From Neopararhizobium haloflavum (GTDB taxonomy: Bacteria; Pseudomonadota; Alphaproteobacteria; Rhizobiales; Rhizobiaceae): a DNA stretch of 64,000 nt. Below the pieces are notes generated by a model. It did no database searches and had not been told where the DNA came from. It saw only the letters and a list, made by a program, of their open reading frames with translations. Of the stretch, positions 25,525 to 49,110 are shown piece by piece. A program made the translations under genes and the position numbers. The stretch spans positions 620,001 through 684,000 of the forward strand of contig NZ_NWUC01000001.1 of the NCBI RefSeq assembly GCF_002750855.1. The letters run 5' to 3'. The stretch's first letter is position 1. Each line of letters starts with the position of its first letter.

Positions 25525-26217
25525 GCGGAACGCCTGGAACTTGAAGCACTTGACGACCCAAACGGCCTGACTGCGTCGGCAACAGCAATCTTGCATTGGG
25601 CCTTCCTTGGCGCTCCCCCTTTTCCCCGCCCCTCGGGCCCGTGGCATACTCACCCCGTCCTTTCCGGCTGGAAGTATTCGCGAGACGTTCGGATGCGGGA
25701 AAGGACCGGCGCTTCCGGTTACAGCTAACGTGGCTGTGGCCCGGAGCCGGGCAAAAAGGGCTCCCGCCGGCACTATGACCGGCTTTGACTGCGTGCTCAT
25801 GCAAGTCGCTCGGGTTTTCGCGGGCCGACACCCGCCATGAACCCGGGTCGACGCAGAGAGCTTCGACCTGCCCGGAGAGGGGGAGACCCCTCGCAGAACG
25901 CTGACGGAGCGCGAAACCCGCGCCATCTCCATCCAATCTGCATCACGGCACGGCTTTTGCGCTCCGTATCCAGATTGCCTGTTGCATCCACCGGGCGGCC
26001 AAGGCCGCGCCGGGATTTGAGCTTGGGCGCGCCAATCCTTTCTCAAGTTGAATTCCGACCCATCAGAGATCCTGCGCCGCACCTTCGTCGCGCGCATTTC
26101 GTGCCATGTCGCAAACAGGCGTGAGCGCCGCGTGGGCGGCTTGCATAGTCGCGGGCACATGGGGATCGGCCGCGTGGGCATCAGTGCGCGCGGGGCGCAG
26201 CAGGCAAAGGCATGGCA
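25525..26217. other. 693-base non-coding region upstream of the flavoprotein gene
   Basis: No supported gene. Open frames here, including very long ones on the minus strand, reflect GC content. A GC-rich block with many adjacent hairpins occupies 25657-25925 and is listed separately. The last 290 bases before the flavoprotein gene hold no recognised promoter. Confidence 0.5.
25657..25925. other. Cluster of adjacent hairpins, possible structured RNA
   Basis: Successive perfect stems: GTCCTTTCC/GGAAAGGAC (25657, 25698), ACAGC/GCTGT (25721, 25733), GGAGCC/GGCTCC (25743, 25759), GCCGG/CCGGC (25766, 25779), CGGGTT/AACCCG enclosing GCGGG/CCCGC (25811-25845), GGTCGA/TCGACC (25846, 25863) and GAGGGG/CCCCTC closed by a GAGA tetraloop (25877-25892). 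It matches no riboswitch or RNA family I could recognise. Confidence 0.4.
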
Positions 26218-28728
26218 ATGAAGGACAGGACGCGCGCGGTGGTGATCGGCGGCGGGGTTGTCGGGGTTTCGACGCTCTACCACCTGGCGAAGAAGGGTTG
26301 GGACGATGTCGTCCTGATCGAGCGCAAGGAACTGACGTCGGGTTCCACCTGGCACGCCGCCGGGCTTCTGCCGCTTTTCAACGTCAGCTATTCCGTCGGG
26401 CAGATCCACAAATATTCGGTGCGGTTCTATCAGGAACTCCAGGAAGAGACCGGCATGAATGTCGGGTTCTCCAAGGTCTCGAATGTGCGTCTTGCCCGCA
26501 CCAAGGATCGCTGGGACGAGTTCATGTATTATGCCGGGATCGCCGAGACGATCGGCGTGCCGGTGAAGATCCTGACGCCGGAGGAGGTGAAAGAGGTCTG
26601 GCCGCTCTGCGAGACGGAGGGGCTTTTCGGCGCGCTCCAGCATCCGGATGACGGCTATATCCAGCCGGCCGACCTGACCCAGGCGCTGGCAAAGGGCGCG
26701 CGCGATCGCGGTGCCACGATCTACCGCTACACCAGCGTCACGGCGATCGAGCAGCAGGGCGACGGCACCTGGCTTGTGAAGACCGACAAGGGCGACATCG
26801 TCGCCGACCACGTCGTATCGGCAACCGGAAATTTCGCGCGCCGGACCGGTGCCATGGTCGGCCTCAACGTGCCGGTGATTCCCGTTGAGCATCAATACAT
26901 CGTGACGGAGCCGCATCCGGCGATCGTTGAACGCAAGAAGCAGGGTCTGCCGGAAATGGGCGTCCTGCGCGAGGCCGATTCCTCCTGGTACATGCGCGAG
27001 GAGAACGGCGGGTTGCTGCTCGGCCCGTATGAAAAAGGCGCGCCGTGCTGCTACATGGACGGACCGACCGACGACAGCGAATACGAGCTCTTCCAGGAGG
27101 ACCTCGACCGGCTGATGCCGCATATCGAGACGGCGATCACGCGCGTTCCCGCCTTCGGCGAGGTCGGTATCAAGAAGGTCTATAACGGAGCCATTGCCTA
27201 TACGCCGGACGGCTCGCCGATTGTCGGTCCGGCGCCGGGACTCAAGAATTTCTGGCTGAACGAGGGGCATTCCTTCGGCGTCACCGCCGCGGGCGGCGCC
27301 GGCTGGCAGCTTGCCGAGTGGATCGTCGACGGCGAACCGACCATCGACATGATGGGCGTCGATCCGCGCCGCTTCGGTCCGTACGCGACGGAAGGCTACC
27401 TCAAGGAGAAGAACGAGGAAGCCTACGCCAACGTCTTCACCATGCACTACCCTGACGAGGAGCGCGCGGCCGCCCGCCCGCTGAAGACCACCCCCGTCTA
27501 CGATCGGTTGAAGAAAATGGGTGCCGTGTTCGGCTCCGTCTATGGCTGGGAGCGGGCCAACTGGTTCGCGCCGGACGGCTATTTTGTGCCGCCAGAACAA
27601 CTCGGCGTCGGTGTCGACGTTCTGACCAACCACAACCACGCTGCGCCACTGGATGATGGGCGCATCGTGGAGCGCTGGTCGTTTCGTCGCTCGAACTATT
27701 TCGAGCATGTCGGCAACGAGGTGAAGAATGTCGCCGACAATGTCGGTGTGCTCGACATGTCAGCCTTCGCCAAGTGCTGGATTTCCGGCCCCGGCGCGGA
27801 AGCCTGGCTCAATTCCATCCTCGCCAACGCGGTGCCCAAGAGGGTCGGCCGCATCGCGCTTTGCCATATGCTGACGAAAAAGGGCGGGGTGCGCTGCGAA
27901 TTCACTGTCTATCGCCAGCCGGCCGGCTTCTATCTGGTGTCCGCCGGGGCGTACGAGGCGCACGACCACGACATTCTGCAAAAGCTGCTTCCGGCCGACG
28001 GCAGTGTCCACATGTTCCCGATCACCACGTTGTGGGGCGTGCTCGTTCTTGCCGGCCCGCGATCTCGAGACGTTCTGCAGAAGCTCACGCGCACAAGTCT
28101 TTCGAACGCCGATTTTCCGTGGCTCTCGGGCAAGGCGATCAATGTCGGCCCGGCCACGGCGCATGCGCTTCGCGTCAACTTCGTTGGCGAGCTTGGATGG
28201 GAGCTGCATCATCCGATCGAGCAGCAGAACGCCATTTTCGACCAGCTGATGGAGGCCGGCGCCGAATACGGGATCAAGCCCTTCGGCATCCGCGCCATGA
28301 CGGCGATGGCGATCGAAAAGTCCTACCGTCTCATCCCGCGTGAACTCTCCATTGAGTACAGCGCCTACGAATCTGGGCTCGACCGGTTCATCAAGCCGGA
28401 CAAGGGGGATTTCATCGGGCGCGACGCGGTGGTCAGGTCTAAGGCAGACGGCCTGCGCTGGCAGTTCGTCACGCTGGAGGTCGACGGTGTCACCGACGCC
28501 GACGCGCGCGGCAATGAGGCGATTTACCGTGATGGCGTGCTCGTCGGTCGTGCGACGCACGGCTCGTTCGGGTTTCGAACCGGCACGTCGCTCGCGCTGG
28601 CCATGGTCAAGCCGGAGCACGCGGGTGAAGGCACGGAACTCGACATCAAGATACTGGGGACGCTTCACAAGGCACGCGTCATCGGCGAAAGCCCTTACGA
28701 CCCGCAGAACGCCCGTCTGCGGGCCTGA
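26218..28728 (+). CDS. Dimethylglycine dehydrogenase-like FAD/GcvT protein
   Basis: An 836-residue two-part enzyme. Residues 1-400 form a DAAO-type FAD domain: dinucleotide motif VVIGGGVVGVS, then GSTWHAAG, whose His (residue 46 from this start) is the covalent FAD site in dimethylglycine and sarcosine dehydrogenases. Residues 430-836 form a GcvT-like tetrahydrofolate domain. It should demethylate dimethylglycine or sarcosine and load the one-carbon unit on THF. The second ATG (26218) has AAAGG seven bases upstream; 26212 is the alternative. It begins the one-carbon cluster. Substrate is inferred from the betaine context. Confidence 0.82.
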   Translation: MKDRTRAVVIGGGVVGVSTLYHLAKKGWDDVVLIERKELTSGSTWHAAGLLPLFNVSYSVGQIHKYSVRFYQELQEETGMNVGFSKVSNVRLARTKDRWDEFMYYAGIAETIGVPVKILTPEEVKEVWPLCETEGLFGALQHPDDGYIQPADLTQALAKGARDRGATIYRYTSVTAIEQQGDGTWLVKTDKGDIVADHVVSATGNFARRTGAMVGLNVPVIPVEHQYIVTEPHPAIVERKKQGLPEMGVLREADSSWYMREENGGLLLGPYEKGAPCCYMDGPTDDSEYELFQEDLDRLMPHIETAITRVPAFGEVGIKKVYNGAIAYTPDGSPIVGPAPGLKNFWLNEGHSFGVTAAGGAGWQLAEWIVDGEPTIDMMGVDPRRFGPYATEGYLKEKNEEAYANVFTMHYPDEERAAARPLKTTPVYDRLKKMGAVFGSVYGWERANWFAPDGYFVPPEQLGVGVDVLTNHNHAAPLDDGRIVERWSFRRSNYFEHVGNEVKNVADNVGVLDMSAFAKCWISGPGAEAWLNSILANAVPKRVGRIALCHMLTKKGGVRCEFTVYRQPAGFYLVSAGAYEAHDHDILQKLLPADGSVHMFPITTLWGVLVLAGPRSRDVLQKLTRTSLSNADFPWLSGKAINVGPATAHALRVNFVGELGWELHHPIEQQNAIFDQLMEAGAEYGIKPFGIRAMTAMAIEKSYRLIPRELSIEYSAYESGLDRFIKPDKGDFIGRDAVVRSKADGLRWQFVTLEVDGVTDADARGNEAIYRDGVLVGRATHGSFGFRTGTSLALAMVKPEHAGEGTELDIKILGTLHKARVIGESPYDPQNARLRA

Positions 28729-29709: not shown

Positions 29710-30714
29710 TTACGCAGCGTTGAGCAGCTGCTTTCGGTCGGCCCGCTCCTGCTGCGGTGAGCGCCCGTATAGCTCGCGGTAGCACTTGGAGAAATGCGAG
29801 GCGGAGACAAAGCCGCAGGCTACCGCCACTTCCACCACCGGCATCGTCGACTGCACCAGGAGATGACGGGCACGATCAAGACGGATTTCCAGATAGTAGC
29901 GTGCCGGCGAGCGGCCCATCTCCTGACGGAACAGCCGCTCGATCTGTCGGCGTGACAGCCCCGCATAGCGGGCGATCTCGATCAGGGAAAGCGGTTCGGA
30001 AAGATGCGCCTCCATCAATTCGATGATCGAAAGAATCTTCGAGTTTTGAACGCCCAGACGGGCCCTCAGCGGCAGACGCTGGCGGTCGTGGGGATTGCGG
30101 ACCCGATCGGTCAGCGCCTGTTCGCAGATCCGGTTGACGAGGTTGTCATCATGGTCGTCGCCGATCAGGTTGATCATCATGTCAAGCGCCGCGGTGCCGC
30201 CGGCACAGGTGTAGATATTGGAGTCGACCTCGTAGAGATCGGCGAAGACGTCGACTTTCGGAAATGCCTCGGCAAAGCCCGGCAGGTTTTCCCAGTGAAT
30301 GGCGCAGCGTCTGCCGGAGAGCAGGCCGGCACTGGCGAGAATATGTGCGCCGGTGCAAAGGCCGCCGACGGCGATGCCGCGGTTGTATTCCTCGCGCAGC
30401 CAGGCATTGACCGACTTGTTCTGGAACTTCTCGACGTTGACGCCGGCACAGACGAAGACCATCGAGGGTCTGTTCTCGCCGGTCAGGTGGCGGCGTTCGT
30501 CGGCCAGCGAGGTGTCGACCGCGACCGCGACGCCGTTCGATGCGCGCACAGGTCCCCCGTCGCTCGACGACAGGCGCCAGCGATAGCATTCGTAGCCAAG
30601 CATGCGGTTGGCGATGCGCAGCGGCTCGATGGCGGTGGAAAACGCCAGCATGGAAAAGTCGGGAACGAGGAAGAAGACGACGGATCGCTTGATACGGCTT
30701 TGTGCGCTGGCCAT
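29710..30714 (-). CDS. GlxA-family AraC-type regulator (GbdR-like)
   Basis: A 334-residue regulator: an N-terminal DJ-1/PfpI-like domain (SVVFFLVPDFSMLAFSTAIE, then VGGLCTGAHILASAGLLSG) and a C-terminal AraC double helix-turn-helix (LIEIARYAGLSRRQIERLFRQ and VACGFVSASHFSKCYRELYG). This layout and sequence type is that of GbdR, which senses glycine betaine and dimethylglycine in Pseudomonas. Placed beside a dimethylglycine dehydrogenase-like gene, the same effector is likely here. The ATG at 30714 is chosen; seven more codons are possible. Confidence 0.85.
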   Translation of the reverse strand: MASAQSRIKRSVVFFLVPDFSMLAFSTAIEPLRIANRMLGYECYRWRLSSSDGGPVRASNGVAVAVDTSLADERRHLTGENRPSMVFVCAGVNVEKFQNKSVNAWLREEYNRGIAVGGLCTGAHILASAGLLSGRRCAIHWENLPGFAEAFPKVDVFADLYEVDSNIYTCAGGTAALDMMINLIGDDHDDNLVNRICEQALTDRVRNPHDRQRLPLRARLGVQNSKILSIIELMEAHLSEPLSLIEIARYAGLSRRQIERLFRQEMGRSPARYYLEIRLDRARHLLVQSTMPVVEVAVACGFVSASHFSKCYRELYGRSPQQERADRKQLLNAA

Positions 30715-30892
30715 GGTGGCATCCCGATGACGCATTCGTGGCCGGCGCGCTCATCCAGCGTTCGGCAGTCGCAGAGCGACCGCGCGGGACATTGGCATAG
30801 CGCAAATTGCGTGTGAAGCGGCTTTGCGCACGTCGGCTACGAAAATAACGCGGCGCGCGCAAAGAAGTTGCTCAATGGAAGGCCTGCTGCCC

Positions 30893-31135
30893 TCAATCGT
30901 TTCGGCGCTGCGGCCAGCCGATATCCTTGCGAACCTCGGGCGGAAGCTGTGCGATCTCGCGGTCGGTCGTGTAGCGAAGCCAATCACGCCTGGCTTTTTC
31001 GCGGCGGCGCGCCGAAGCGGTGCGCAAGGCATTGAATGCGGCGATGATCGTCTGGCCGATCGTGTCGCCATAGGTGAGCGCGGTGAGGCTTTCGCCGATC
31101 GAGGGGCGGCGGGCGTCGGTTTCGCAATGTGCCAT
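30893..31135 (-). CDS. Small protein with DUF1127-like C-terminus
   Basis: An 80-residue basic protein. The C-terminus (DREIAQLPPEVRKDIGWP) resembles the 'L....L.DIG' core of DUF1127 proteins, preceded by an Arg/Lys-rich helix. The ATG at 31135 is preferred since AAGAAGG is nine bases upstream; ATG 31144 is too close. It is divergent from the LysR gene, which probably controls it. Confidence 0.6.
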   Translation of the reverse strand: MAHCETDARRPSIGESLTALTYGDTIGQTIIAAFNALRTASARRREKARRDWLRYTTDREIAQLPPEVRKDIGWPQRRND

Positions 31136-31254
31136 GGTCGTCATCCTTCTTTGGTTTGGCAATGAGGAGGTCGCGACCCTCGATGTTGACTATCCGGCCA
31201 AAGCGCGGTTCAATCAAACGAAATGGTTTGATGCTCTGGTTCAAGGAAACTGAA

Positions 31255-32151
31255 ATGAACGCACCGCTCAATCACCCCTTGCCAACGCTTGAACTCGACG
31301 TCTTGCGAACCTTCGTGGCGATCGCGGAAACGAAAAGCTTCTCGGCAGCTGCGAATTCCGTGTTTCGCACGCCGTCCGCCGTTTCGATGCAGATCAAGAA
31401 GCTTGAAGAGACGTTGAATCGTCCGGTTTTCACCCGAGACGCGCGCAATGTGGCGTTGACGGGGGACGGGGAAATCCTGCTGACCTACGCCCGCCAGCTC
31501 CTGGCGATCAATCGCGAGGCCGTCTCGAAGTTCATCGCTCCCGACATCTCAGGTGTGGTAAGGCTCGGCTCGCCGGACGATTATGGGGAGCGGATATTGC
31601 CGCTGGTGCTGAAACGCTTCGCCGAAACGCATCCTTCCATCGCGGTGGATGTCGTCATCGACCAGAGCGTCAACCTGAAGAAGCGTCTGGAAGCGGGGCT
31701 TCTCGACCTGACCTTGATGACCTGCTCCAGCACCATTACGCCGCCTGGATCGGAAATCCTTCTGACGGAGGACATCGTCTGGGGCGGGGCAAAGGGCGGC
31801 TCGGCGCATTTGCGCGAACCGCTGCCGGTCTCACTGTGGGAAGAAGGCTGCGCATGGCGGCTCCGCGCCCTGGAAGGCCTCAGCCGCCAGGGTCGCAACT
31901 ACCGGGTCGCCTATATGAGCGCTCACACCTCAGGCCAGCGCGCCGCAATCCTTGCGGATCTGGCGGTTGCCCCATTGCCGAAGTCCTTTGTCGGCAAGGA
32001 CCTTGCCGTCCTGGGGCCGGCCGACGGACTGCCGGAGCTTGGCACATACAACGTCATCATGGTTGTCGCCCCGGATGCCGGGCAGCCGGTTCTGGCCGCT
32101 GCCGACCATCTGCGCGCGACGTTGGCGACGCTCAACGAACGGCTCCACTGA
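31255..32151 (+). CDS. LysR-family transcriptional regulator
   Basis: A 298-residue LysR protein: winged helix at residues 10-70 (LDVLRTFVAIAETKSFSAAANSV, then SAVSMQIKKLEETL) and a substrate-binding-like effector domain. AAGGA is eight bases before the ATG at 31255. It is divergent from the small DUF1127-like gene at 30893, the usual arrangement for a LysR target. The direct effector cannot be inferred. Confidence 0.88.
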   Translation: MNAPLNHPLPTLELDVLRTFVAIAETKSFSAAANSVFRTPSAVSMQIKKLEETLNRPVFTRDARNVALTGDGEILLTYARQLLAINREAVSKFIAPDISGVVRLGSPDDYGERILPLVLKRFAETHPSIAVDVVIDQSVNLKKRLEAGLLDLTLMTCSSTITPPGSEILLTEDIVWGGAKGGSAHLREPLPVSLWEEGCAWRLRALEGLSRQGRNYRVAYMSAHTSGQRAAILADLAVAPLPKSFVGKDLAVLGPADGLPELGTYNVIMVVAPDAGQPVLAAADHLRATLATLNERLH

Positions 32152-32173: not shown

Positions 32174-32890
32174 TCAGGCCCGCTCGAAAATGAGCGCGGC
32201 AAGCTGCTCGAAATCTGGCGCGACATAGTCCCAGGCGGCTGTCGGCCCGAGATCGGTCGTTTGAAGCGGACCGTGCTCGTGCTTGCGTGCAACGAAGGCG
32301 GTGCGCAGGCCAGCGGCGTGGGCGGCATGAAGATCGTCATTGTGGGCGGCGACCATGACGACCTCAGCCGGCTCCAGCCGAAGGGCAGCGCAGGATGCAA
32401 GGTATACGTTTGGCTTCGGCTTGTAGTCGCGCGCAATCCCGGCGCCGAGGATGCAGTCCCAGGGCAGTCGGCCATAACGGGCAAGCCGTGTCATCAGCGC
32501 GATCGATCCGTTGGAACATGGCGCGATGATCGCGTTCTGCTTCAACGCGCCAAGGCCAGCGATGACATCCGGCCAGGGTGGCAGCTTTTCCCAGGCGTGG
32601 TTGAGGGCATCGACCTCTTCAGGCTCGAAAAGATCGGCGATATCGAGCGCGGCCAGAACCCTTAACAGGTTCTCGCGGTGAAGATCGTCGAGTTCGACAT
32701 AACCGCGGCCCCCGGTACGGATGCGCTCCATCGCGGGTTGGTATTCGCCGCGCCAGCGATCGGCAAACGCATGAACGTCGGTCTCGATCTGCTTTTCCGA
32801 CAGGAACTTTTCGGCTTCCGCGGCGATGCCCGCGCGCCAATCAACGCAGGTGCCGAAGACATCGAAAATCAGCGCCTGCGGCCGGCTCAT
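32174..32890 (-). CDS. Haloacid dehalogenase type II (HAD superfamily)
   Basis: A 238-residue HAD hydrolase: nucleophile motif ALIFDVFGTCVDWR (Asp at residue 10), motif II Ser in PCSNGS, Lys in RDYKPKPNVYL and the acidic motif VVMVAAHNDDL. These fit the type II haloacid dehalogenase subgroup. The ATG at 32890 overlaps the stop of the corrinoid activator gene (ATGA), so it is the last gene of that transcript. A dehalogenase reaction is possible, but a phosphatase or repair role is equally open. Confidence 0.83.
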   Translation of the reverse strand: MSRPQALIFDVFGTCVDWRAGIAAEAEKFLSEKQIETDVHAFADRWRGEYQPAMERIRTGGRGYVELDDLHRENLLRVLAALDIADLFEPEEVDALNHAWEKLPPWPDVIAGLGALKQNAIIAPCSNGSIALMTRLARYGRLPWDCILGAGIARDYKPKPNVYLASCAALRLEPAEVVMVAAHNDDLHAAHAAGLRTAFVARKHEHGPLQTTDLGPTAAWDYVAPDFEQLAALIFERA

Positions 32891-34935
32891 CGCGCTCTCC
32901 GGCTCGCGCGGCCACGGCGTCGTCCCGGGCCGTCCTCGCCGACCGGGGCGGCGCAACCCCGCGCTGGAAGCGCGATCGCAGCGCTCAGGTGGGGAAAAGG
33001 ATCGTGCTTGTTGGGAAAGGCCATGGCGCTGACGAAGTGCTCCTGAAACTTCGGCTCCAGAGCGGTCTCGATCTTCTCGATCTCGGTGACCGTCTGCTCG
33101 ATTTCGCGGCGATGGTCGCGGTTGAGCAGTGCCATTCGTGCACCCGTTCCCGCAGCATTGCCGACTGCCTTGACCTTAGCGAGATCGCAGTCCGGGACAA
33201 GCCCGAGCACCATGGCGTATTTTGGATCGATGAAGGACCCGAACGCGCCGGCAAGTGCTATTCGGTCGACTTCGGCGATGGCGAGCTTGTCCATCAGAAG
33301 CTTGACGCCCGCGTAAAGCGCGGCCTTTGCGAGTTGAATGGCGCGGACATCGTTCTGGGTGATGACCAGCCGCGGGTCGCTCTCCTGAATGACATAGGAG
33401 AACGTTCGGCCATTGGCGACAATGCGGGGATTGCGCTCGGCGAGCGTGCCGTCGATCACGCCGTCCTCCGACACGATCCCCGTCAGATACATCTCGGCAA
33501 CGACCTCGATGATGCCCGAGCCACAGACGCCCGTTACCTTCGTCCTGCTGGCCGCCTCGGCGAATCCTTGTTCATCGGACCATTGCTCGATCCCGATCAC
33601 GCGGTAGCGCGGCTCCAGCGTTTCGGCATCTATGCGCAACCGCTCGATCGCACCGGGCGCTGCGCGCTGGCCGCATGAAATCTCGGCGCCCTCGAAAGCC
33701 GGACCGGTCGGTGATGAAGCGGCGACGACACGGGCGGATGAACCCAGGACGATCTCGGCATTGGTGCCGATGTCGACCAGCAGCATCGTCTCGTCCTGGC
33801 GGTGCGGCCCTTCCGTCAGAACGGCGGCGGCCGCGTCGGCGCCGACATGGCCGGCAATGCAAGGCAGAACATAGAGCCGCGTGCCGGGGTTCATCGTCAG
33901 TTCGACGTCGGATGCCTTGATCTCCACCGCACCCGAAACGGCCAGTGCGAAGGGCGCCCCGCCGAGTTCGGTCGGGTCGATTCCGAGGAACAGGTGATGC
34001 ATGATCGGGTTGCCGACGAAGACGGCGTCGAGAATGTCGTGGCGGTCGATCCCGCCTTCGACGCAGACCTTGTCGATCAGATCGCTCAGGGCCTGACGAA
34101 CCGCGCGGGTCATGGCGCCGCGTCCGTCGGGATTCATCATCACATAGGAAACGCGGCTCATCAGATCCTCGCCGAAGCGAATCTGTGGGTTGGACGTGCC
34201 AGCCGATGCGACGGTACGGCCCGACAGCAGCGAGGACAGATGCATGGCGATGGTGGTCGATCCGATATCGCAAGCAATGCCGTAGGCCTCGTTCTTCAGG
34301 CCGGGGTAAAGCGCGATCAGATGCGGGCGATCGTCCTCCAGATCGTGGTGAATGGCTGCGGTGACCGTCCATCCGCCCTTGCGCAGGATCTGCTGCACGT
34401 CCCTTAGCAGATGGGGATCGACCTCAAGGCGCTCGATCTGCCAGTCGCGGGCCAGCGCGCTCTTGAGACGGTCGAGATCGCCGAGCGGATGATGCATGTC
34501 CGGTTCTTCGACCTCGACATAGCACATGCGGATCGACGGATTTCGCTCGATCACGCGTCCGTCGGAATCCTTGCGGACGACCTGTGCGTTGACCGCGACG
34601 TCCTGGGGGACGTCTATGACGAGATCACCTTCGATCGTTGCCGAACAGGACAGGCGACGGCCCGCTTTCAGCCCGCGTTTGTCGGCATAGCGCTGTTCCT
34701 TGCCACCGAAGCCGGAGATGTGCGCCAGTGTGGAGGTGATGCCATGCTTGGCGAATTGTCCTTCCTGCACCTCGATCTGACAGCGTCCGCAGATGCCGCG
34801 TCCGCCGCAGACGCTTTCGACATAAACGCCGAGATCGCGTGCGGCATCGAGAAGGGGCGTGCCGGCGGGGAACCGGCCGCGCTTGCCAGAAGGCATGAAG
34901 AGAACGAGATGATCCGGCTTGCTGTGGGCGTTCAC
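32887..34935 (-). CDS. Corrinoid activation protein (2Fe-2S ferredoxin plus ASKHA domain, RACo/DUF4445 type)
   Basis: A 682-residue protein in the family of RACo, which use ATP to re-reduce inactive Co(II) corrinoid proteins. The N-terminal ferredoxin binds a [2Fe-2S] cluster with C43, C49, C52 and C97. A linker leads to an ASKHA ATPase part: GIACDIGSTTIAMHL, VDIGTNAEIVLG, VTGVCGSGIIEVVAEM, LAGAFGSFIDPKYAMVLG. The C-terminus is an Arg/Gly tail. It overlaps the next gene upstream and the HAD gene downstream. Partners are the corrinoid protein at 38679 and the methyltransferases of this cluster. Confidence 0.9.
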   Translation of the reverse strand: MNAHSKPDHLVLFMPSGKRGRFPAGTPLLDAARDLGVYVESVCGGRGICGRCQIEVQEGQFAKHGITSTLAHISGFGGKEQRYADKRGLKAGRRLSCSATIEGDLVIDVPQDVAVNAQVVRKDSDGRVIERNPSIRMCYVEVEEPDMHHPLGDLDRLKSALARDWQIERLEVDPHLLRDVQQILRKGGWTVTAAIHHDLEDDRPHLIALYPGLKNEAYGIACDIGSTTIAMHLSSLLSGRTVASAGTSNPQIRFGEDLMSRVSYVMMNPDGRGAMTRAVRQALSDLIDKVCVEGGIDRHDILDAVFVGNPIMHHLFLGIDPTELGGAPFALAVSGAVEIKASDVELTMNPGTRLYVLPCIAGHVGADAAAAVLTEGPHRQDETMLLVDIGTNAEIVLGSSARVVAASSPTGPAFEGAEISCGQRAAPGAIERLRIDAETLEPRYRVIGIEQWSDEQGFAEAASRTKVTGVCGSGIIEVVAEMYLTGIVSEDGVIDGTLAERNPRIVANGRTFSYVIQESDPRLVITQNDVRAIQLAKAALYAGVKLLMDKLAIAEVDRIALAGAFGSFIDPKYAMVLGLVPDCDLAKVKAVGNAAGTGARMALLNRDHRREIEQTVTEIEKIETALEPKFQEHFVSAMAFPNKHDPFPHLSAAIALPARGCAAPVGEDGPGRRRGRASRRAR

Positions 34936-35285
34936 GTCTTTCGGCTCAATCTCCGGGCGTTTGATTTGACGCGCTTTGCGAAGGGGCGGATCGACGCCGC
35001 GACGATGGCGTCGGTGTCGAAAGCCTTCGCGCGTCCACCGCTCCAGGGTGCAAAGGCGGCGTTGACCATCTGCGTGGCGAGCGAGGTATTCACCGCTGCC
35101 AGGCTTTCATATCCGGCGAGCAGCTTCTCGCTGACCATGCGGCTGTTCTCGCGGTCGCCATGGGCGGAGGGGGAAAAGGCGTTGAACCACATCCCCGTCA
35201 TCCGCGTGGCGATGACGAATGGAGCCGTGAAGGCGAGGGTGGCGAAATCTGCATTGGCGGTCAGCGGGGAGCGGCGTCGGGTCAT
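34932..35285 (-). CDS. Conserved protein of the corrinoid cluster, function unknown
   Basis: A 117-residue protein with an Ala/Thr/Phe-rich N-terminal part (FATLAFTAPFVIATRMTGMW, weakly amphipathic), a helical middle and a basic end. It overlaps the corrinoid activator gene by four bases (ATGA), so it is translated with it. No family is recognised with confidence; the helical, Ala-rich pattern and FNAF/AFAPW elements recall phasin-like helical proteins only in general style. Confidence 0.65.
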   Translation of the reverse strand: MTRRRSPLTANADFATLAFTAPFVIATRMTGMWFNAFSPSAHGDRENSRMVSEKLLAGYESLAAVNTSLATQMVNAAFAPWSGGRAKAFDTDAIVAASIRPFAKRVKSNARRLSRKT

Positions 35286-37312: not shown

Positions 37313-37351
37313 GGCGCATAAAGCCTTCTTCAAATTCGGGGTGGCGCCATC

Positions 37352-38364: not shown

Positions 38365-38433
38365 GCGTTTCCGCGTCATTGCTTAACCACGGCGCTCCGC
38401 AAATACCGGGCGCTCCAGACTAGGGACAGTACG

Positions 38434-38592
38434 ATGACCAAGATTATCGGCCGCACCGCCATCCTTTGTGTAGCACTCTTCTCACTGGCCGCATGCGGCA
38501 ATACGATCCGTGGCGTGGGCGCCGACATGGCCAACACCGTCGATGCGACGCAGTCGGCCGGCCAGGACGTCGATGCAGCCGCTTCCTACTAG
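38434..38592 (+). CDS. Entericidin EcnA/B-family lipoprotein
   Basis: A 52-residue lipoprotein: signal peptide with lipobox LAAC (Cys at about 22), then GNTIRGVGADMANTVDATQS, the entericidin pattern of short membrane lipoproteins. It interrupts the otherwise minus-strand corrinoid cluster and has its own terminator. The family is stress-related; toxin or antidote roles are known only in enterobacteria. Confidence 0.85.
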   Translation: MTKIIGRTAILCVALFSLAACGNTIRGVGADMANTVDATQSAGQDVDAAASY

Positions 38593-38673: not shown

Positions 38674-38678
38674 CGTGC

Positions 38679-41309: not shown

Positions 41310-41351
41310 GATCATTCACAGGGCCGTATGGCGCGGCCTTTCGGAATGATC
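41310..41351. terminator. Bidirectional hairpin between convergent genes
   Basis: GATCATTC (41310) pairs with GAATGATC (41344), enclosing a smaller GGCCG/CGGCC stem. It separates the convergent MttB-type and bmt genes and touches the bmt stop codon. Confidence 0.6.
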
Positions 41352-42363
41352 AGGCGCGACGCCGGCCGCGTCGCTCGCGCTGCGGCGCGGTCTTGTCGTC
41401 ACCGGCCGGCTTGTTGCGCAAGGGGCCGATGCGATCGACAATCGTCTCGATCGTCGGCCGTTCGCCCTTTTCGTGTGTGTCTATGGCCTGGCGCATGGCC
41501 TTCAAGTGCTCGCACGCCGTTCCGCAACACCCGCCGATGATCGTCGCACCGGCATCGATGGCGAGCCGGGCGTAATCGGCCATGAGGGGCGGCGTTCCGG
41601 AATAGTGAATCTGCGCGCCGCGAAATTCGGGAATGCCGCAATTGCCCTTGACCACGATCGCGGCACCTTCGCGCGCATCGCTCATGTCGAGCAGCGAGGA
41701 CAGGATGTCCGCGGCGCCGACACCGCAATTGGCCCCCACGGCGACCGGGCCCGGCGCAACATCGCTCGAAAGTTCATGGATATCGCGCGGGTGCACGCCC
41801 ATCATCGTGCGGCCGGCCGTATCGAAGGAGGCGGTGTAGACATAGGGCAGGCCGATGGCAACCGCGGCCGTGCATGCTGCCTTGATCTCGTCGGGCGAGG
41901 ACATGGTCTCGATCCACGCAACATCGATCCCGCCGGCCTTGAGGCCTTCCATCTGCTCTCTGAATGCGTCCACCGTCTCATCAAAAGTGAGCGCTCCAAG
42001 CGGTTCGAGCAATTCACCGGTCGGGCCAACCGAGCCTGCAACGATGACCGTTCGCTCTGCCGCGTCGGCGACCTGCCTTGCGATCTCCGCCGCGCGGTGA
42101 TTGATCTCGAAGACCCGGTCGTCAGCGCCATGCAGCTTGAGGCGATGCCGCGTCCCGCCGAAAGAGTTGGTCAGAATGATATCGCAGCCCGCCGCGACGA
42201 ACTGGCGGTGAAGATCGCTGATGCGATCCGGCGCCGTTTCATTCCACAATTCCGGAGCCTCGCCGGCTTCCAGGCCCATGGCGAAGAGACTTGTGCCCAT
42301 TGCGCCATCGGCAAGGAGGACACCTTTTTGTGCGATGAGTTGGCTGAGGGGATCGACGGACAT
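41350..42363 (-). CDS. bmt: Betaine-homocysteine S-methyltransferase (BHMT family)
   Basis: A 337-residue homocysteine S-methyltransferase with zinc ligands C213 (VGANCGVG), C279 and C280 (GGCCGT). N-terminal VLLADGAMGTSLF and LTNSFGGTR are standard. Long cofactor-independent BHMT-type enzymes use glycine betaine as methyl donor, giving methionine and dimethylglycine. It ends in a basic RERRGRRRA tail. A near-palindromic operator sits 36 bases before the start. It offers a second route from betaine to dimethylglycine beside the corrinoid one. Confidence 0.85.
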   Translation of the reverse strand: MSVDPLSQLIAQKGVLLADGAMGTSLFAMGLEAGEAPELWNETAPDRISDLHRQFVAAGCDIILTNSFGGTRHRLKLHGADDRVFEINHRAAEIARQVADAAERTVIVAGSVGPTGELLEPLGALTFDETVDAFREQMEGLKAGGIDVAWIETMSSPDEIKAACTAAVAIGLPYVYTASFDTAGRTMMGVHPRDIHELSSDVAPGPVAVGANCGVGAADILSSLLDMSDAREGAAIVVKGNCGIPEFRGAQIHYSGTPPLMADYARLAIDAGATIIGGCCGTACEHLKAMRQAIDTHEKGERPTIETIVDRIGPLRNKPAGDDKTAPQRERRGRRRA

Positions 42364-42436: not shown

Positions 42437-43492
42437 TTACCGCGACTTGCCTGCAGAACGCTCCAGGTCCGCATTCACCTTGCCGAAGGCTTCCTCACTT
42501 ACCCATTCGCGCCAGGTGTCCGGGTGGGTCCGCAGAAAATGGATCGCCGCTTCCTCCCCGGAAGCCTTGCCGTCCGTCATCCAGGCCAGCAGGCCATTCA
42601 GCACATCGTTGCCCAGCGAACGCTTCTTGAGATAGCCGAGCGCCCCGTTCGCCCGACGCGCGAAGCCGTCCGTCACGACGGTATAGACCTCCGATCGCGG
42701 CCATGCGGTTATCCGCGGCGCGGCGCAATCAGGATCGATGATGCAGCCATGCCAGAGTTCCTCGTCATAGGGTGCATCGAAATTGAGTTTCACCATGTCA
42801 TAGCGCCCGAGCGCGGCCGTTGGCGCCCAATAGTAGCCGAGCCATCCCTTGCGATCGGCGTAGGCCTCGGCCAGCGACTCCTCGAGTGCTTCGCCAGTAG
42901 CGGACGGAAGAAGGTCAAATCCTTTCTCCCATCCCCGATAGGCTTCGAAGAGATTGGTGGTGGAGATCTGGCAGCTCCAGCCTTCCGGGCAGTTGTGCAA
43001 CGCTCCACGCCGGGGATCGCCAGGCGCCGGGAAAAGTTCCGGCGCGGCCAACGCATCGGCGACCGTCTCGATTTCGGGATGAGCCTCGGCGATGTATTGC
43101 GGAATCCACCAGCCTTCCACACCTCCATCGGCGAAGGCCGGCGCCATATAATGCAACTCCCGTGTCGCAACCGCCTGGTCAAGCGTCTCGCGTGCCGAGT
43201 TGATCCAGGTTTCCGGCGATACGTCCGGCTTGCCTTCATCGATCATGGAATTGAGCGTCGACATGGTGTCGCCGGGGATCAGTTCGACGTCGCAGCCGTA
43301 ACCGTGTTCGAGGATGATCGCGTCTATATGGGAGAAGATGGAGGCTGACGCCCAGTTGAGTTCGGCGATCGACACGTCTCCGCAGGAAAGCGGTCGGTCG
43401 CCGGCTTCTCGGGCCGGGTGTTCCTGGGCGAACGCTGAAGGGGCAAGGGTGAAAAGCGCTGCCCAGACAAGGTTTTGTGATATGGACGTCAT
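42437..43492 (-). CDS. Glycine betaine/proline-type ABC transporter substrate-binding protein
   Basis: A 351-residue exported binding protein of the OpuAC/ProX group. After a signal peptide (to about SAFAQ) it has ELNWASASIFSHIDAIILEHGYG, PDVSPETWINSARE, VEGWWIPQYIAE and YYWAPTAALGRYD, with the aromatic residues that cage quaternary ammonium groups. It has two cysteines (CPEGWSC) likely disulfide-bonded. No permease or ATPase is adjacent, so it is an orphan. It is divergent from the formate dehydrogenase operon. The ATG at 43492 is preferred over 43507. Confidence 0.87.
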   Translation of the reverse strand: MTSISQNLVWAALFTLAPSAFAQEHPAREAGDRPLSCGDVSIAELNWASASIFSHIDAIILEHGYGCDVELIPGDTMSTLNSMIDEGKPDVSPETWINSARETLDQAVATRELHYMAPAFADGGVEGWWIPQYIAEAHPEIETVADALAAPELFPAPGDPRRGALHNCPEGWSCQISTTNLFEAYRGWEKGFDLLPSATGEALEESLAEAYADRKGWLGYYWAPTAALGRYDMVKLNFDAPYDEELWHGCIIDPDCAAPRITAWPRSEVYTVVTDGFARRANGALGYLKKRSLGNDVLNGLLAWMTDGKASGEEAAIHFLRTHPDTWREWVSEEAFGKVNADLERSAGKSR

Positions 43493-43716
43493 GTCGGTTC
43501 TACCCATTCGACTGTCTTACGCCGCAAGAACGACAAAGGCAAAGGCGGCAGGCTCGTTCCCCACCGCACAAACCCGATGCGCCGCATCGCCGCATCGCGC
43601 GGTTTGCAAGGCCGTATAATGGTACGGCTCTGCGCCTTTTTGACGACAAGGGTGTTGCACCAGAATTATTGAGCACGCAGGAAGAGGCCACGAAAGAGTG
43701 TGGCAGGCGAGGCAGA

Positions 43717-45390
43717 ATGAAAGCGGGCGAGGGACGACGGAAAAACGCGCCGAAGGGCAGAGCGCTGGACGATGCCGCGCTGATGGATGTCGAGGCGCTG
43801 CTGGGGCAGCGGACGATCCGGCGCGACCATCTGATCGAATATCTGCATCTTGTTCAGGACGCTTTCGGTTGCCTGTCTGCCGACCACCTCAGGGCGCTTG
43901 CCGAGATCATGCGGCTTTCGCAGGCGGAGGTCTACGAAGTCGCATCATTCTACGATCATTTCGATGTCGTGCGCGAGGGCGAGCCGCGACCCGCGCCGCT
44001 GACGATCCGGGTCTGCGACAGCCTTTCGTGCATGATGGCGGGCGCGGAAACGCTGATCAGCGAACTTCAGACTGCCGTCGATCCTCAGTTCGTCCGCGTC
44101 GTTCGCGCGCCCTGCATGGGCCGATGCGCAACGGCGCCGGCTGCGCGGCTTGGCGATCGCGAAGTGGATCATGCCAGCGCCGAAGGGCTGAAGCGGATGG
44201 CGGATGACGGCGCATTCGATCCGGTCATTCCGGATTACGTGCAACTGGCCGCCTATCGTGCGCAGGGCGGCTATGATCTCCTTCAAGCGGTCCGGTCCGG
44301 CGAGCGCAGTGCCGACAACCTGATTTCGAGCCTGTCCGACGCCGGGCTGCGCGGCCTTGGCGGGGCAGGATTTCCAGCCGCCAAGAAGTGGCAGATCGTC
44401 AAGGGGTTTGCCGGCCCGCGGCTGATGTCGATCAACGGCGACGAAGGCGAACCGGGCACATTCAAGGATCGCTACTATCTGGAACGTGATCCGCACCGCA
44501 TGCTGGAGGGTGCGCTGATTGCCGCGCAGGTCGTCGAGGCGGAGCGCATCTACCTCTACATGCGCGACGAGTACCCGGCCGTTCTGGAAATCCTGCGCCG
44601 CGAGATCGCTGCGCTCGAGGAAGCCGAACTCGCCGCGCCGGGCTTCATCGAACTCAGGCGTGGTGCCGGCGCCTATATCTGCGGCGAAGAGAGCGCGATG
44701 CTGGAGTCGATCGAGGGCAAGCGCGGTCTGCCACGCCATCGTCCTCCTTATATCGCCGAGAAAGGGCTCTTCGGCCGACCGACGCTCAACCACAATATCG
44801 AAACGCTGTGGTGGGTGCGCGACATCGCCGAAAACGGCGCCGACTGGTTCGCGGCGATGGGGCGCAAGGACCATCCGGGCATCCGCTCCTGGTCCGTGTC
44901 GGGTCGTGTGAAGGAGCCGGGCGTCAAATTGGCGCCGGCCGGGGTGACGGTGCGCGAACTGATCGACGATTATTGCGGCGGAATGGCCGATGGCCATGCC
45001 TTCAAGGCGTATCTGCCGGGCGGGGCCTCCGGCGGTATCCTGCCGGCCGCGATGGACGACGTTCCGCTCGATTTCGGCGGCAGGCTCGCTGAACTCGGTG
45101 GCTTCGTCGGGAGCCACGCGGTCGTCATCCTTTCCGACAAGGACAGCGTCAAGGACGCTACGCTCAATCTCCTGCGGTTCTTCAAGCATGAGAGTTGCGG
45201 CCAGTGCACGCCCTGCCGATCCGGCACGGAAAAGATGGTGCAACTCCTGGAGCGGCCGGGGGGCTTTGACGAAGAGGCGATGCGTGATCTGGAAGCGGTG
45301 ATGCGGGACGCTTCCATCTGCGGGCTTGGGCAGGCCGCGCCGAACCCCGTGAACCACCTTTTGACCCATTTCAGAGACGACCTCGAATGA
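43717..45390 (+). CDS. NAD-dependent formate dehydrogenase beta subunit (NuoE-NuoF fusion)
   Basis: A 557-residue diaphorase subunit. Residues 25-150 are NuoE-like with a [2Fe-2S] site (C100, C105, C133, C137). Residues 190-557 are NuoF-like: GLRGLGGAGFPAAKKW, the FMN motif NGDEGEPGTFKDR, and a [4Fe-4S] site CGQCTPC plus C535 (C494, C497, C500). Together they pass electrons to NAD. The ATG at 43717 has a close GAGG; upstream extension is not supported. It overlaps the LysE gene (ATGA) and pairs with the alpha subunit at 46321. Confidence 0.9.
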   Translation: MKAGEGRRKNAPKGRALDDAALMDVEALLGQRTIRRDHLIEYLHLVQDAFGCLSADHLRALAEIMRLSQAEVYEVASFYDHFDVVREGEPRPAPLTIRVCDSLSCMMAGAETLISELQTAVDPQFVRVVRAPCMGRCATAPAARLGDREVDHASAEGLKRMADDGAFDPVIPDYVQLAAYRAQGGYDLLQAVRSGERSADNLISSLSDAGLRGLGGAGFPAAKKWQIVKGFAGPRLMSINGDEGEPGTFKDRYYLERDPHRMLEGALIAAQVVEAERIYLYMRDEYPAVLEILRREIAALEEAELAAPGFIELRRGAGAYICGEESAMLESIEGKRGLPRHRPPYIAEKGLFGRPTLNHNIETLWWVRDIAENGADWFAAMGRKDHPGIRSWSVSGRVKEPGVKLAPAGVTVRELIDDYCGGMADGHAFKAYLPGGASGGILPAAMDDVPLDFGGRLAELGGFVGSHAVVILSDKDSVKDATLNLLRFFKHESCGQCTPCRSGTEKMVQLLERPGGFDEEAMRDLEAVMRDASICGLGQAAPNPVNHLLTHFRDDLE

Positions 45391-46036: not shown

Positions 46037-46324
46037 ATGATGACCATCAAGGCAGTCGGAACCGTTCAGATCGACAATGAGCGCACGCGGGTGACCGAGT
46101 GGCGGTTCGCGCCCGGCGCCGAAACCGGCGAACACGTCCATGAACACGACTATGTCGTGGTGCCGGGGCTGAACGGCCAATTGCGGATCGTCGACCCGAA
46201 GGGGTCGGAAAGTATTGTCGATCTTTCCGCAGGCGGCTCCTATTTTCGGGAGAAGGGCGTGCATCACAACGTGATCAACGCCAATGACTACGACTTCTCT
46301 TTCGTGGAAATCGAGTTCAAATGA
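46037..46324 (+). CDS. Cupin domain protein
   Basis: A 95-residue cupin: WRFAPGAETGEHVHEHDYVVV gives the metal-binding H.H.(x)E/D motif, and GVHHNVINAND the second motif. It begins at the ATG at 46037 or 46040 (AAGGGA upstream); a third ATG at 46013 overlaps the LysE stop. Its stop overlaps the FDH alpha subunit start (ATGA). A sensor or small enzyme role is possible. Confidence 0.75.
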   Translation: MMTIKAVGTVQIDNERTRVTEWRFAPGAETGEHVHEHDYVVVPGLNGQLRIVDPKGSESIVDLSAGGSYFREKGVHHNVINANDYDFSFVEIEFK

Positions 46325-49110
46325 CCAAGACGATCAGCTTCACAATCGACGGCAGGACGGTCGAGGCGAGCGCGGGCGAGACGATCTGGGAGGTCGCCAA
46401 ACGCGCTGGAACGCGCATTCCGCATCTGTGCCACCTCGACAAGCCCGGCTACAGGCCGGACGGCAATTGCCGCGCCTGCATGGTCGAAATCGAGGGTGAG
46501 CGCACCCTTGCAGCCTCCTGCATCCGCAAGCCCGCCGCCGACATGGTGGTGAAGACGACGACGGAGCGCGCGGACAAGGCCCGGCGCATGGTGTTCGAGA
46601 TGCTTGCGTCCGACATGCCGGCCCGCGAGGCTTCGCCCGACGAGCAGTCGGCGTTCTGGGACTGGGCCGGTTCGATGGGCATTTCGGGGTCGGCGCGCTA
46701 CCGCTCGAAATTCGAGCATGAAACGCCGCCGCTCGGCCACGACGTCACCAATCCAGCCATCGCCGTCAATCTCGATGCCTGCATCGCCTGCAATGCCTGC
46801 GTGCGCGCTTGCCGGGAGGTCCAGGTGAACGACGTTCTGGGGATGGGCGAACGCGGCAGCCATACCGTGCCGGTTTTCGACATCCACGACCCGATGGGGC
46901 ACTCGACCTGCGTGACCTGCGGGGAGTGCGTGCAGGCCTGCCCGACCGGCGCGCTCTACGAAAAGACGCTGATGGATAACGGCAATCGCACACGCAGCGT
47001 CAAGGATTTCGACAAGGTCGTCGATTCGGTCTGTCCGTTCTGCGGCGTCGGCTGCCAGACAACGGTTGCGGTCAAGGACGACACGATCGTCCAGGTCGAC
47101 GGTCGTGACGGGCCGGCCAACGAGAACCGCCTGTGCGTCAAGGGCCGTTTCGGCTTCGACTATGTCCGATCGCCGGACCGTTTGAGAACGCCGCTGGTGC
47201 GCCGGGACGACGCGCCGAAGCGTGGCGACATCAATCTGAAGGGTGCCGATCCTCTCTCTGTATTCCGCGAAGCCACATGGGACGAGGCGCTGGAACGCGC
47301 CGCCTCGGGTCTGAACCGGATACGGGACGAGAAAGGCGGACAGGCGATTGCCGGATTCGGCTCGGCCAAGGGTTCGAACGAGGAGGCCTATCTTTTCCAG
47401 AAGTTCATCCGGCAGGGTTTCGGCACGAACAACGTCGACCACTGCACGCGGCTTTGCCACGCATCCTCGGTCGCCGCCCTCATGGAGGGGGTTGGCTCCG
47501 GCGCGGTTTCGGCCCCGTTCATGGATGCGCTGAAGGCCGACTGCATCATCGTCATCGGGGCGCGGCCGACCACGAATCACCCGGTTGCTGCAACGTATTT
47601 CAAGCAGGCAGCCAAGCAGGGGCGCAAACTTGTCGTCATCGATCCGCGACGCCAGGATCTGATGCGGCATGCCAGCCACTCGCTGGTTTTCAAGCCAGGC
47701 ACCGACGTGGCGTTGCTGAACGCGATGCTCAATGTGATCATCGCCGAAAGGCTTTACGACGAGCAGTACATCCAGGCCAACGTCTCAGGGTTCGACGCGC
47801 TGCGCGAGAAGGTAAAGGACTTCACGCCGGAAGCGATGGAGGAGGTCTGCGGCATCGCGGCCGACGTCATCCGGGACGTCGCGCGGACGTATGCCAAATC
47901 CGAGCGCTCGATCATCTTCTGGGGCATGGGAATTTCGCAGCACACCCATGGCACCGACAACTCCCGCTGCCTGATCGCGCTTGCACTCATTACCGGCCAC
48001 ATCGGGCGACCGGGCACGGGACTGCACCCGCTGAGGGGACAGAACAACGTTCAGGGCGCTTCGGACGCGGGTCTCATCCCGATGGTCTATCCCGATTACC
48101 GGTCGGTCGAGGACCCCGATATCCGCGCCGAATTCGAAGACCTCTGGGGCCGACCGCTGGATGCCAAGCGCGGACTGACCGTCGTCGAGATCATGGATGC
48201 CGTCCATGATGGCGCGATCACCGGCATGTATGTCATGGGCGAAAATCCGGCGATGTCGGACCCCGACCAGACCCATGCGCGCGCAGCGCTCGCCAAGCTC
48301 GACCATCTGGTGGTTCAGGATATCTTCCTGACCGAGACGGCCTGGCATGCGGACGTCGTGCTGCCTGCATCGGCGCATGCCGAGAAACTGGGCACTTTCA
48401 CCAATACCAACCGCCAGGTGCAGATCGGCCGGCCGGCCATCTCGCTGCCAGGCGAGGCCCGACAGGACTGGGAGATCATCCAGAGCCTTGCCAATCGCTG
48501 CGGCATGTCTTGGGCGTATGAGCACGTATCGCAGGTCTATACGGAAATGGCCTCGACGATGCCGTCGCTGAAGAACATTTCCTGGGCACGGGTGGAAGAC
48601 GAGGAGTCTGTGACTTATCCGGCCGATGCGCCTGACAGGGCCGGCAATGAGATCATCTTCGCGAACGGCTTTCCGACGAAGGACCGACGCGGCAAGATCG
48701 TTCCCGCCGATCTGTTGGCCCCGGATGAGGTCCCCGACGAGGCCTATCCGCTGGTGCTGACGACGGGGCGCCTTCTGGAGCATTGGCACACTGGAGCGAT
48801 GACGCGGCGCGCGGGCGTGCTCGACGCCATCGAGCCAGAGGGCATCGCATCCATGAATCCGCGCGAAATCGAACGGCGCGGCATGCGTCAGGGCATGATG
48901 GTGAAGGTGGAGACGCGGCGCGGCACCGTGGAGGCATTGCTGCGGGCCGACCGGGAGGTCGCCGACGGGATGATCTTCATGCCGTTCTGCTTCAACGAGA
49001 GCCCGGCCAACGTGCTGACCAATCCGCAACTCGATCCGTTCGGAAAAATTCCGGAGTTCAAGTTCTGTGCTGCGCGGATCGCGGTCGCCGAGCCTGTCGA
49101 GCAGGCCTGA
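46321..49110 (+). CDS. fdhF: Formate dehydrogenase alpha subunit (Mo/W-bis-MGD)
   Basis: A 929-residue molybdo-enzyme oxidising formate to CO2. N-terminal [2Fe-2S] domain (C37, C50, C53, C67), two [4Fe-4S] sets (C154-C164 and C197-C207), a further cluster ligand set CPFCGVGC with C272, and the active-site Cys379 in CTRLCHASS; it is a cysteine, not selenocysteine, form. The molybdopterin guanine dinucleotide domain follows with WGMGISQHTHGTDNSR and LVLTTGRLLEHWHTG. It overlaps the cupin gene by four bases. In this context it would oxidise formate from methyl groups. Confidence 0.95.
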   Translation: MTKTISFTIDGRTVEASAGETIWEVAKRAGTRIPHLCHLDKPGYRPDGNCRACMVEIEGERTLAASCIRKPAADMVVKTTTERADKARRMVFEMLASDMPAREASPDEQSAFWDWAGSMGISGSARYRSKFEHETPPLGHDVTNPAIAVNLDACIACNACVRACREVQVNDVLGMGERGSHTVPVFDIHDPMGHSTCVTCGECVQACPTGALYEKTLMDNGNRTRSVKDFDKVVDSVCPFCGVGCQTTVAVKDDTIVQVDGRDGPANENRLCVKGRFGFDYVRSPDRLRTPLVRRDDAPKRGDINLKGADPLSVFREATWDEALERAASGLNRIRDEKGGQAIAGFGSAKGSNEEAYLFQKFIRQGFGTNNVDHCTRLCHASSVAALMEGVGSGAVSAPFMDALKADCIIVIGARPTTNHPVAATYFKQAAKQGRKLVVIDPRRQDLMRHASHSLVFKPGTDVALLNAMLNVIIAERLYDEQYIQANVSGFDALREKVKDFTPEAMEEVCGIAADVIRDVARTYAKSERSIIFWGMGISQHTHGTDNSRCLIALALITGHIGRPGTGLHPLRGQNNVQGASDAGLIPMVYPDYRSVEDPDIRAEFEDLWGRPLDAKRGLTVVEIMDAVHDGAITGMYVMGENPAMSDPDQTHARAALAKLDHLVVQDIFLTETAWHADVVLPASAHAEKLGTFTNTNRQVQIGRPAISLPGEARQDWEIIQSLANRCGMSWAYEHVSQVYTEMASTMPSLKNISWARVEDEESVTYPADAPDRAGNEIIFANGFPTKDRRGKIVPADLLAPDEVPDEAYPLVLTTGRLLEHWHTGAMTRRAGVLDAIEPEGIASMNPREIERRGMRQGMMVKVETRRGTVEALLRADREVADGMIFMPFCFNESPANVLTNPQLDPFGKIPEFKFCAARIAVAEPVEQA

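Follow-up and report, generated by a model that had tools for sequence, protein, structure and literature searches.

A probable aerobic MtgBCDE locus for quaternary-amine demethylation and methionine synthesis in Neopararhizobium haloflavum

Gene content and conservation of the mtg locus

The window analyzed here, a 64,000-nucleotide stretch of the Neopararhizobium haloflavum genome (contig NZ_NWUC01000001.1), carries a cluster of genes for corrinoid-dependent methyl transfer. This cluster very probably represents the aerobic MtgBCDE system in a member of the Rhizobiaceae, combining quaternary-amine demethylation, methionine synthesis, and corrinoid reactivation; an aerobic life of the strain is presumed from its family. 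Genes were called as complete open reading frames (ORFs) in the window and scored against Pfam, NCBIfam/TIGRFAM, and Rfam profiles. The central genes are as follows (H4F, tetrahydrofolate; MTHFR, methylenetetrahydrofolate reductase):

32887–34935, minus strand: ramA-like corrinoid reductive activator (2Fe-2S and RACo), 682 amino acids (PF14574, 301 bits; PF17651, PF17650, PF00111)
34932–35285, minus strand: small hypothetical protein between ramA and mtgD, 117 amino acids (no Pfam match)
35399–36352, minus strand: mtgD, methyl-H4F:corrinoid methyltransferase, 317 amino acids (Pterin_bind PF00809, 103 bits)
36404–37333, minus strand: MetF2, short MTHFR-like protein, 309 amino acids (PF02219, 33 bits)
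37352–37663, minus strand: PF13769 protein (Pfam name 'Virulence factor'), 103 amino acids (PF13769, 83 bits)
37765–38379, minus strand: DUF1638 protein, a published accessory, 204 amino acids (PF07796, 95 bits)
38679–39377, minus strand: mtgC, corrinoid carrier, 232 amino acids (PF02607 cap and PF02310 B12 domain)
39661–41262, plus strand: mtgB, pyrrolysine-free MttB-superfamily methyltransferase, 533 amino acids (PF06253, 781 bits)
41350–42363, minus strand: mtgE ('bmt'), homocysteine methyltransferase module, 337 amino acids (PF02574, 224 bits)

All genes named in an initial annotation of the stretch are present as complete ORFs with profile matches; the DUF1638 gene, the PF13769 gene, and a cobalamin riboswitch were left unlisted by it. 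The genes run in the order ramA, small ORF, mtgD, metF, PF13769, DUF1638, and mtgC on the minus strand, followed by mtgB on the plus strand and mtgE on the minus strand. In Sinorhizobium meliloti (CP090106.1), the order is an ASKHA protein, a hypothetical protein, a methyl-H4F cobalamin methyltransferase, MetF, its C-terminal partner, a 'virulence factor', three small genes, a formyl transferase, DUF1638, a cobalamin-binding protein, an MttB-family protein and, further on, bmt. Judged by this match in gene content and order, the two loci are orthologous. An entericidin domain (NF052367) at approximately 38494–38592 on the plus strand separates the DUF1638 gene from mtgC, and S. meliloti has an entericidin gene in the same place.

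We scanned 83 loci, comprising the best 80 of 580 relatives by MtgB in a named genome collection and three loci of genus mates (two of the 83, L025 and L119, are probably one locus), using tblastn with the window proteins and accepting matches over more than half of the query and above 60 bits (above 45 bits for PF13769). The conserved core consists of MtgB (83 loci, being the search bait), MtgC (82), DUF1638 (79), MtgD (73, at 81–93 per cent identity), and PF13769 (73), followed by MtgE (68) and RamA (67). Outer genes are undercounted, as 10 kb was taken on each side and some contigs end before that: a LysR regulator was found in 32 loci (in some of them the match is just 31–34 per cent identical and located elsewhere in the locus), an OpuAC protein in 25, MetF2 in 20, CobQ in 12, and a GbdR-like regulator in 7. 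An ORF similar to the 117-amino-acid hypothetical protein occurs in 17 of the 83.

The system itself is already known from work of 2018–2025, aerobic pyrrolysine-free MttB chemistry is not new, and the window is a further example. The statement of the initial annotation that pyrrolysine-free MttB enzymes come mostly from anaerobes is out of date, given the aerobic system described in the text of Mausz et al. (PNAS 2025; PMC12478193) and the methionine half described in that of Price (2018; PMC5764234). According to the former text, MtgBCDE, both reductive modules, and the cobalamin operon lie all together in S. meliloti, and Ruegeria pomeroyi strains mutated in mtgC or mtgD are auxotrophic for methionine and, even when it is supplied, do not use glycine betaine. 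The window shares with these two organisms, as described there, MtgB, MtgC, MtgD, MtgE, RamA, DUF1638, a metF paralogue beside mtgD, and nearby cob genes; it differs from S. meliloti in having MetF2 instead of MetF and its C-terminal partner, an inserted formate dehydrogenase, and dimethylglycine dehydrogenase (DMGDH)-like and GbdR-like genes nearby. The transposon fitness data in the text of Price (2018; PMC5764234) make PF02574, PF00809, B12, RamA-like, and DUF1638 proteins required for methionine in Phaeobacter inhibens. The window has all of these components, but its genes are clustered, and the source genome has the MetH that P. inhibens lacks.

The step after methyl transfer to H4F would be served by two kinds of protein. 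In S. medicae, two genes that lie between mtgD and the gene for PF13769 encode a full MTHFR (PF02219, 114 bits) and a member of the MTHFR C-terminal family (PF12225), the second of which we take to be MetV. With these two proteins as queries against the 73 mtgD-bearing loci, MetF with MetV was found in 52, as at L039:4249–6245 on the minus strand, and MetF2 in 20; none had both, and the one locus with neither above the thresholds (L083) has a MetV match slightly below. The oxidase thus comes as two mutually exclusive types at mtg loci, and the window has MetF2, for which we propose the role of methyl-H4F oxidase. This clean swap at one locus is a possible addition to the known system. The CmuA/CmuB chloromethane pathway likewise combines aerobic corrinoid methyl transfer to H4F with MetF2-type oxidation, although its first methyltransferase and its substrate are different.

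Methyl transfer, substrate, and methionine

From gene identities, conservation, and co-occurrence, which the data support directly, we infer a substrate, reaction directions, and roles for MetF2, the formate dehydrogenase, and the PF13769 protein. MtgB would demethylate a quaternary amine, with glycine betaine as the likeliest candidate, and load the methyl group onto the cob(I)alamin of MtgC, from which MtgD would pass it to H4F. MetF2 would then oxidize methyl-H4F to methylene-H4F, and folate enzymes and the neighboring formate dehydrogenase would take the carbon to CO2 with NADH, while dimethylglycine would go to the DMGDH-like enzyme and then to sarcosine oxidase. Run in reverse, MtgD would charge MtgC from methyl-H4F, and MtgE would hand the methyl group to homocysteine, yielding methionine. 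The RamA-like and DUF1638 proteins, probably with the PF13769 protein, would regenerate cob(I)alamin by reducing the cob(II)alamin that forms in air.

Aerobic corrinoid-dependent quaternary-amine demethylation, as proposed by the initial annotation, is the best reading of an MttB protein with a carrier, a methyltransferase, and a reactivator, and it has been published for orthologues. The methionine half was missed, however: the carrier, the pterin methyltransferase, the 'BHMT' (betaine-homocysteine methyltransferase), and the reactivator at the same time make up a split methionine synthase, and the module is dual. It represents a widespread aerobic route that applies oxygen-sensitive Co(I) chemistry to a common osmolyte and is tied to methionine.

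The mtgB ORF has zero internal stops and hence no in-frame amber codon, in agreement with the initial annotation. Its product scores 1010 bits against PDB entry 4yyc ('putative trimethylamine methyltransferase'), 413 bits against 2qne (Desulfitobacterium hafniense MtgB), and 412 bits against 9yce ('glycine betaine methyltransferase'), and is distant from the trimethylamine methyltransferase 7xcl (146 bits). Assignment as a pyrrolysine trimethylamine methyltransferase was rejected (TIGR02369, 280 vs 525 bits; no in-frame stop). The MtgABC system of D. hafniense, an anaerobe, resembles the window in its pyrrolysine-free MttB homologue with a corrinoid partner. MtgC carries the DxHxxG motif as DIHDIG at residue 112; it and MetH are the two PF02607 corrinoid carriers found in the genome. 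The following genes flank the central cluster:

26212–28728, plus strand: dimethylglycine dehydrogenase-like protein, 838 amino acids (DAO-FAO_M-GCV_T domains)
29710–30735, minus strand: GbdR-like AraC regulator (NF052371, 370 bits; cut-off 480)
31129–32151, plus strand: LysR regulator (PF00126, PF03466)
42437–43507, minus strand: OpuAC-type betaine/choline substrate-binding protein (PF04069, 170 bits)

The DMGDH-like, GbdR-like, and OpuAC neighbors and the published orthologue suggest that the substrate of the window MttB is most likely glycine betaine. The DMGDH-like protein scores 603 bits against mitochondrial DMGDH (5l46) and 315 bits against N,N-dimethylglycine oxidase (1pj5), and the alpha subunit of a heterotetrameric sarcosine oxidase was found in the genome (1535 bits; cut-off 1164). 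In a check for GbcAB that covered the GbcB half, no GbcB scored above the cut-off in the genome (best 37 bits; cut-off 500). The OpuAC gene has no adjoining gene for an ABC ATPase or permease; in the S. meliloti locus, an ABC ATPase gene lies past bmt.

Several observations weigh against the interpretation of the cluster as a betaine-demethylating MtgBCDE system. The GbdR-like regulator is present, as initially annotated, but scores below the GbdR cut-off, and specificity for glycine betaine is unproved. MtgC, in a departure from the D. hafniense system, falls below both NCBIfam cut-offs for glycine-betaine MtgC (NF047996, 210 vs 370 bits; NF047995, 179 vs 310 bits). The similarity of MetF2 to MTHFR is weak, the genome's own MetH means that methionine synthesis need not rely on the module here, and a homologue of MtgE has been reported to act on betaine directly (see below).

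Alternatively, the main substrate of the window MttB may be a different methylated amine (proline betaine, carnitine, choline, or trimethylamine), with glycine betaine being handled by a second MttB of the genome. The genome indeed has two MttB genes and one MtgC, and the second MttB (L116:9531–11087; 621 bits to 4yyc) is about as near to D. hafniense MtgB as the first (421 vs 413 bits); the text of Mausz et al. (PMC12478193) states that MttB homologues differ in substrate. But the gene that comes after the second MttB, in the same orientation, encodes a 789-amino-acid flavin oxidoreductase akin to 2,4-dienoyl-CoA reductase and histamine/trimethylamine dehydrogenases. The pair is annotated likewise in Roseinatronobacter sp. 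S2, and an oxidoreductase of the old-yellow-enzyme/trimethylamine dehydrogenase type suggests that it is the second MttB that has a different substrate, whereas the window MttB sits with mtgC and the DMGDH-like and GbdR-like genes. We therefore regard a primary role for the window MttB on another amine as possible but rather doubtful. The second pair perhaps demethylates another amine, such as proline betaine, which is a guess; as there are two MttB genes and one MtgC, the single MtgC probably serves both enzymes. Demethylation could also proceed mainly through MtgE (Bmt), acting as a true stand-alone betaine- and dimethylsulfoniopropionate (DMSP)-homocysteine methyltransferase, rather than through MtgB and MtgC. 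MtgE exceeds the cut-off of the NCBIfam model for betaine-homocysteine S-methyltransferase (NF005718, 547 vs 338 bits), a name that reflects annotation rather than assay, and purified P. inhibens Bmt yields methionine directly from betaine and DMSP according to the text of a FEBS J 2025 paper (PMC12366255), in an assay with equimolar enzyme and donor (apparently 200 micromolar) over 2 h. Yet MtgE is nearer to the homocysteine domain of MetH (1q7m, 155 bits) than to human BHMT (1lt7, 59 bits), and the text of Mausz et al. (PMC12478193) reports that the S. meliloti homologue lacks the betaine-binding residues of BHMT and that a bmt mutant supplied with methionine is still able to grow on betaine. 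As far as their texts go, the two 2025 papers (PMC12478193 and PMC12366255) conflict on direct betaine activity of Bmt. We consider the stand-alone route unlikely. The gene initially annotated as BHMT does encode a homocysteine methyltransferase, but overall similarity favors the MtgE module, and a stand-alone betaine enzyme is not clearly supported. MtgE carries NCG at residue 212 and GGCC at residue 277, which are presumably zinc ligands.

The cluster might, finally, be chiefly a split methionine synthase with its reactivation set, kept for methionine, with demethylation minor. This would fit the requirement for the orthologous genes in P. inhibens, as well as the distribution of the MetH activation domain (PF02965) in our set of 101 genomes (the source genome and 100 relatives), a measure that would miss any MetH without PF02965. 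PF02965 was found in 61 of these genomes, DUF1638 in 60, and MttB in 62. Among the 58 genomes with both DUF1638 and MttB, 25 have PF02965 and 33 have no match; 31 of the 33 also have no full-length MetE, which is what methionine synthesis by the module would predict. PF02965 is missing in 35 of 60 DUF1638-positive genomes vs 5 of 41 DUF1638-negative ones. Each of three genus mates examined has DUF1638 and one MttB and no PF02965 match. On the other hand, the source genome has a full MetH (a 1270-amino-acid open frame; PF02965, 428 bits; activation domain at L117:269442–270257), mtgB adjoins mtgC, and the R. pomeroyi mtgC mutant, according to the text of PMC12478193, remains unable to use betaine when methionine is given. 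A cluster devoted chiefly to methionine is therefore improbable, and we retain the dual MtgBCDE interpretation. No full-length MetE was found in the source genome; its MetH may mask a methionine phenotype of the module. With MetH beside the module in one of four species and no MetH activation domain in the other three, the genus offers a natural setting in which to separate the two functions.

The PF13769 protein and corrinoid reactivation

Two of the presumed reactivation proteins have recognizable sequence features. The RamA-like protein has a CX5CX2C ferredoxin motif at residue 43 and matches the RACo Pfam domains, yet scores below the cut-off for AcsV (NF040756, 388 vs 800 bits). Six residues of DUF1638 (C16, C39, H45, C77, H99, and C100) are invariant in 33 of 33 aligned homologues; these four cysteines and two histidines could be ligands of a metal or cluster, which is a guess. 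On the basis of co-occurrence and adjacency, we propose that the PF13769 protein assists corrinoid reactivation as a third accessory. It has 31 invariant columns in 20 aligned sequences, including WRDIPAQ (residues 9–15).

Matches to PF13769 were found in 60 of the 101 genomes. Above 70 bits, they occur in 55 of 60 DUF1638-positive and 0 of 41 DUF1638-negative genomes; counting all matches, the numbers are 56 of 60 and 4 of 41. The distance to DUF1638 is less than 5 kb in 43 of the 60 genomes with PF13769, 5–20 kb in 4, and large in 1; in 8, the two are on different contigs, and in the remaining 4, DUF1638 is absent. We also drew 190 Alphaproteobacteria, the source genome included, in which families appear once or twice among the genomes listed. 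DUF1638 is present in 34 of these, PF13769 in 34, and the C-terminal domain of RACo in 41; PF13769 and DUF1638 occur together in 30. RACo was found in every one of the 34 genomes that carry PF13769 (G107 has both as fragments), an association with a Fisher P-value of 5e-31 when relatedness is ignored. Of the 30 shared genomes, 23 have PF13769 on the strand of DUF1638 and at most 150 bases downstream of it, adjacency here being taken from domain hits rather than gene models. Two of the other seven have the hits on the same strand 3.7 and 80 kb apart, and in five the contig and strand of the PF13769 hit carry none for DUF1638.

Other counts speak against an accessory role. Seven of the 41 RACo genomes have no PF13769 (G171, G177, G181, G225, G273, G278, and G287). 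Among the 101 genomes, five are DUF1638-positive without a PF13769 match above 70 bits (G045, G076, G080, G082, and G098), of which G080 and G082 are rated 100 per cent complete, while in G098 a match of 56 bits lies on a different contig; four DUF1638-less relatives have matches of 46–60 bits. In the class-wide set, PF13769 occurs without DUF1638 in four genomes (G107 and G174, whose matches are partial, at 34 and 39 bits, G209, and G276), and DUF1638 without PF13769 in four (G225, G227, G273, and G278). In Paracoccus aminovorans, for which the mtg locus alone was considered, DUF1638 is separated from the MetF C-terminal partner by 185 bases that contain no annotated gene. Of 14 control genomes, Bacillus subtilis alone has PF13769, and Methanosarcina acetivorans alone has RACo and DUF1638; for these genomes, the link between PF13769 and RACo fails outside Alphaproteobacteria, and the presence of PF13769 without RACo in B. 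subtilis therefore points to another use of the family there.

We consider the balance about even for the proposal that aerobic corrinoid methyl transfer in Alphaproteobacteria has an unrecognized accessory in the PF13769 protein, which together with RamA and DUF1638 would keep the MtgC corrinoid usable in air. It seems to have been overlooked in published accounts of the system: 'virulence factor' has 0 occurrences in the text of PMC12478193 and PMC5764234, and, figures and supplements apart, none of the papers listed in the literature searches gives PF13769 a role in corrinoid methyl transfer. Since this small conserved protein tracks the RamA-type reactivator through the class, the question of how carriers are kept reduced in air becomes testable.

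Formate dehydrogenase and cobalamin-related neighbors

Downstream of mtgE and the OpuAC gene, the window contains the following features:

43477–45390, plus strand: formate dehydrogenase beta (FdhB), NuoE-NuoF fusion (PF01257, PF01512, PF10589)
46321–49110, plus strand: formate dehydrogenase alpha (FdhA; TIGR01591, 751 bits; cut-off 666)
49667–51175, plus strand: cobQ, cobyric acid synthase (NF001989, 627 bits; cut-off 273)
51187–52359, plus strand: HupE/UreJ-like ORF
51212–51591, plus strand: cobalamin riboswitch (RF00174, 53.5 bits; gathering threshold 31.5)
53961–57668: CobN

FdhA is nearest to 7vw6 (a tungsten-containing formate dehydrogenase) and 7e5z (1376 bits), with the next entry at 602 bits. 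We take 7vw6 to be FDH1 of M. extorquens, which the window enzyme also resembles in its NuoE-NuoF fusion partner; the window copy differs in lying inside an mtg locus, and its metal may be tungsten or molybdenum. FdhA and FdhB occur together in just 5 of the 83 loci (L025, L069, and the three genus-mate loci), so the formate dehydrogenase is a local addition to the mtg locus. The initial annotation had counted it and the MetF-like protein as parts of the module; both genes are present, but as lineage-specific neighbors. The start of FdhB is probably further in than the ORF start.

The second-MttB region (L116:7454–11087, minus strand) holds the trimethylamine dehydrogenase/old-yellow-enzyme-type oxidoreductase together with a divergent LysR gene. 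In the window, the riboswitch lies 3' of cobQ, ahead of the HupE/UreJ-like ORF and CobN. The HupE/UreJ-like ORF overlaps the riboswitch, and its true start is therefore probably more downstream; its product is perhaps, at a guess, a riboswitch-controlled cobalt transporter.

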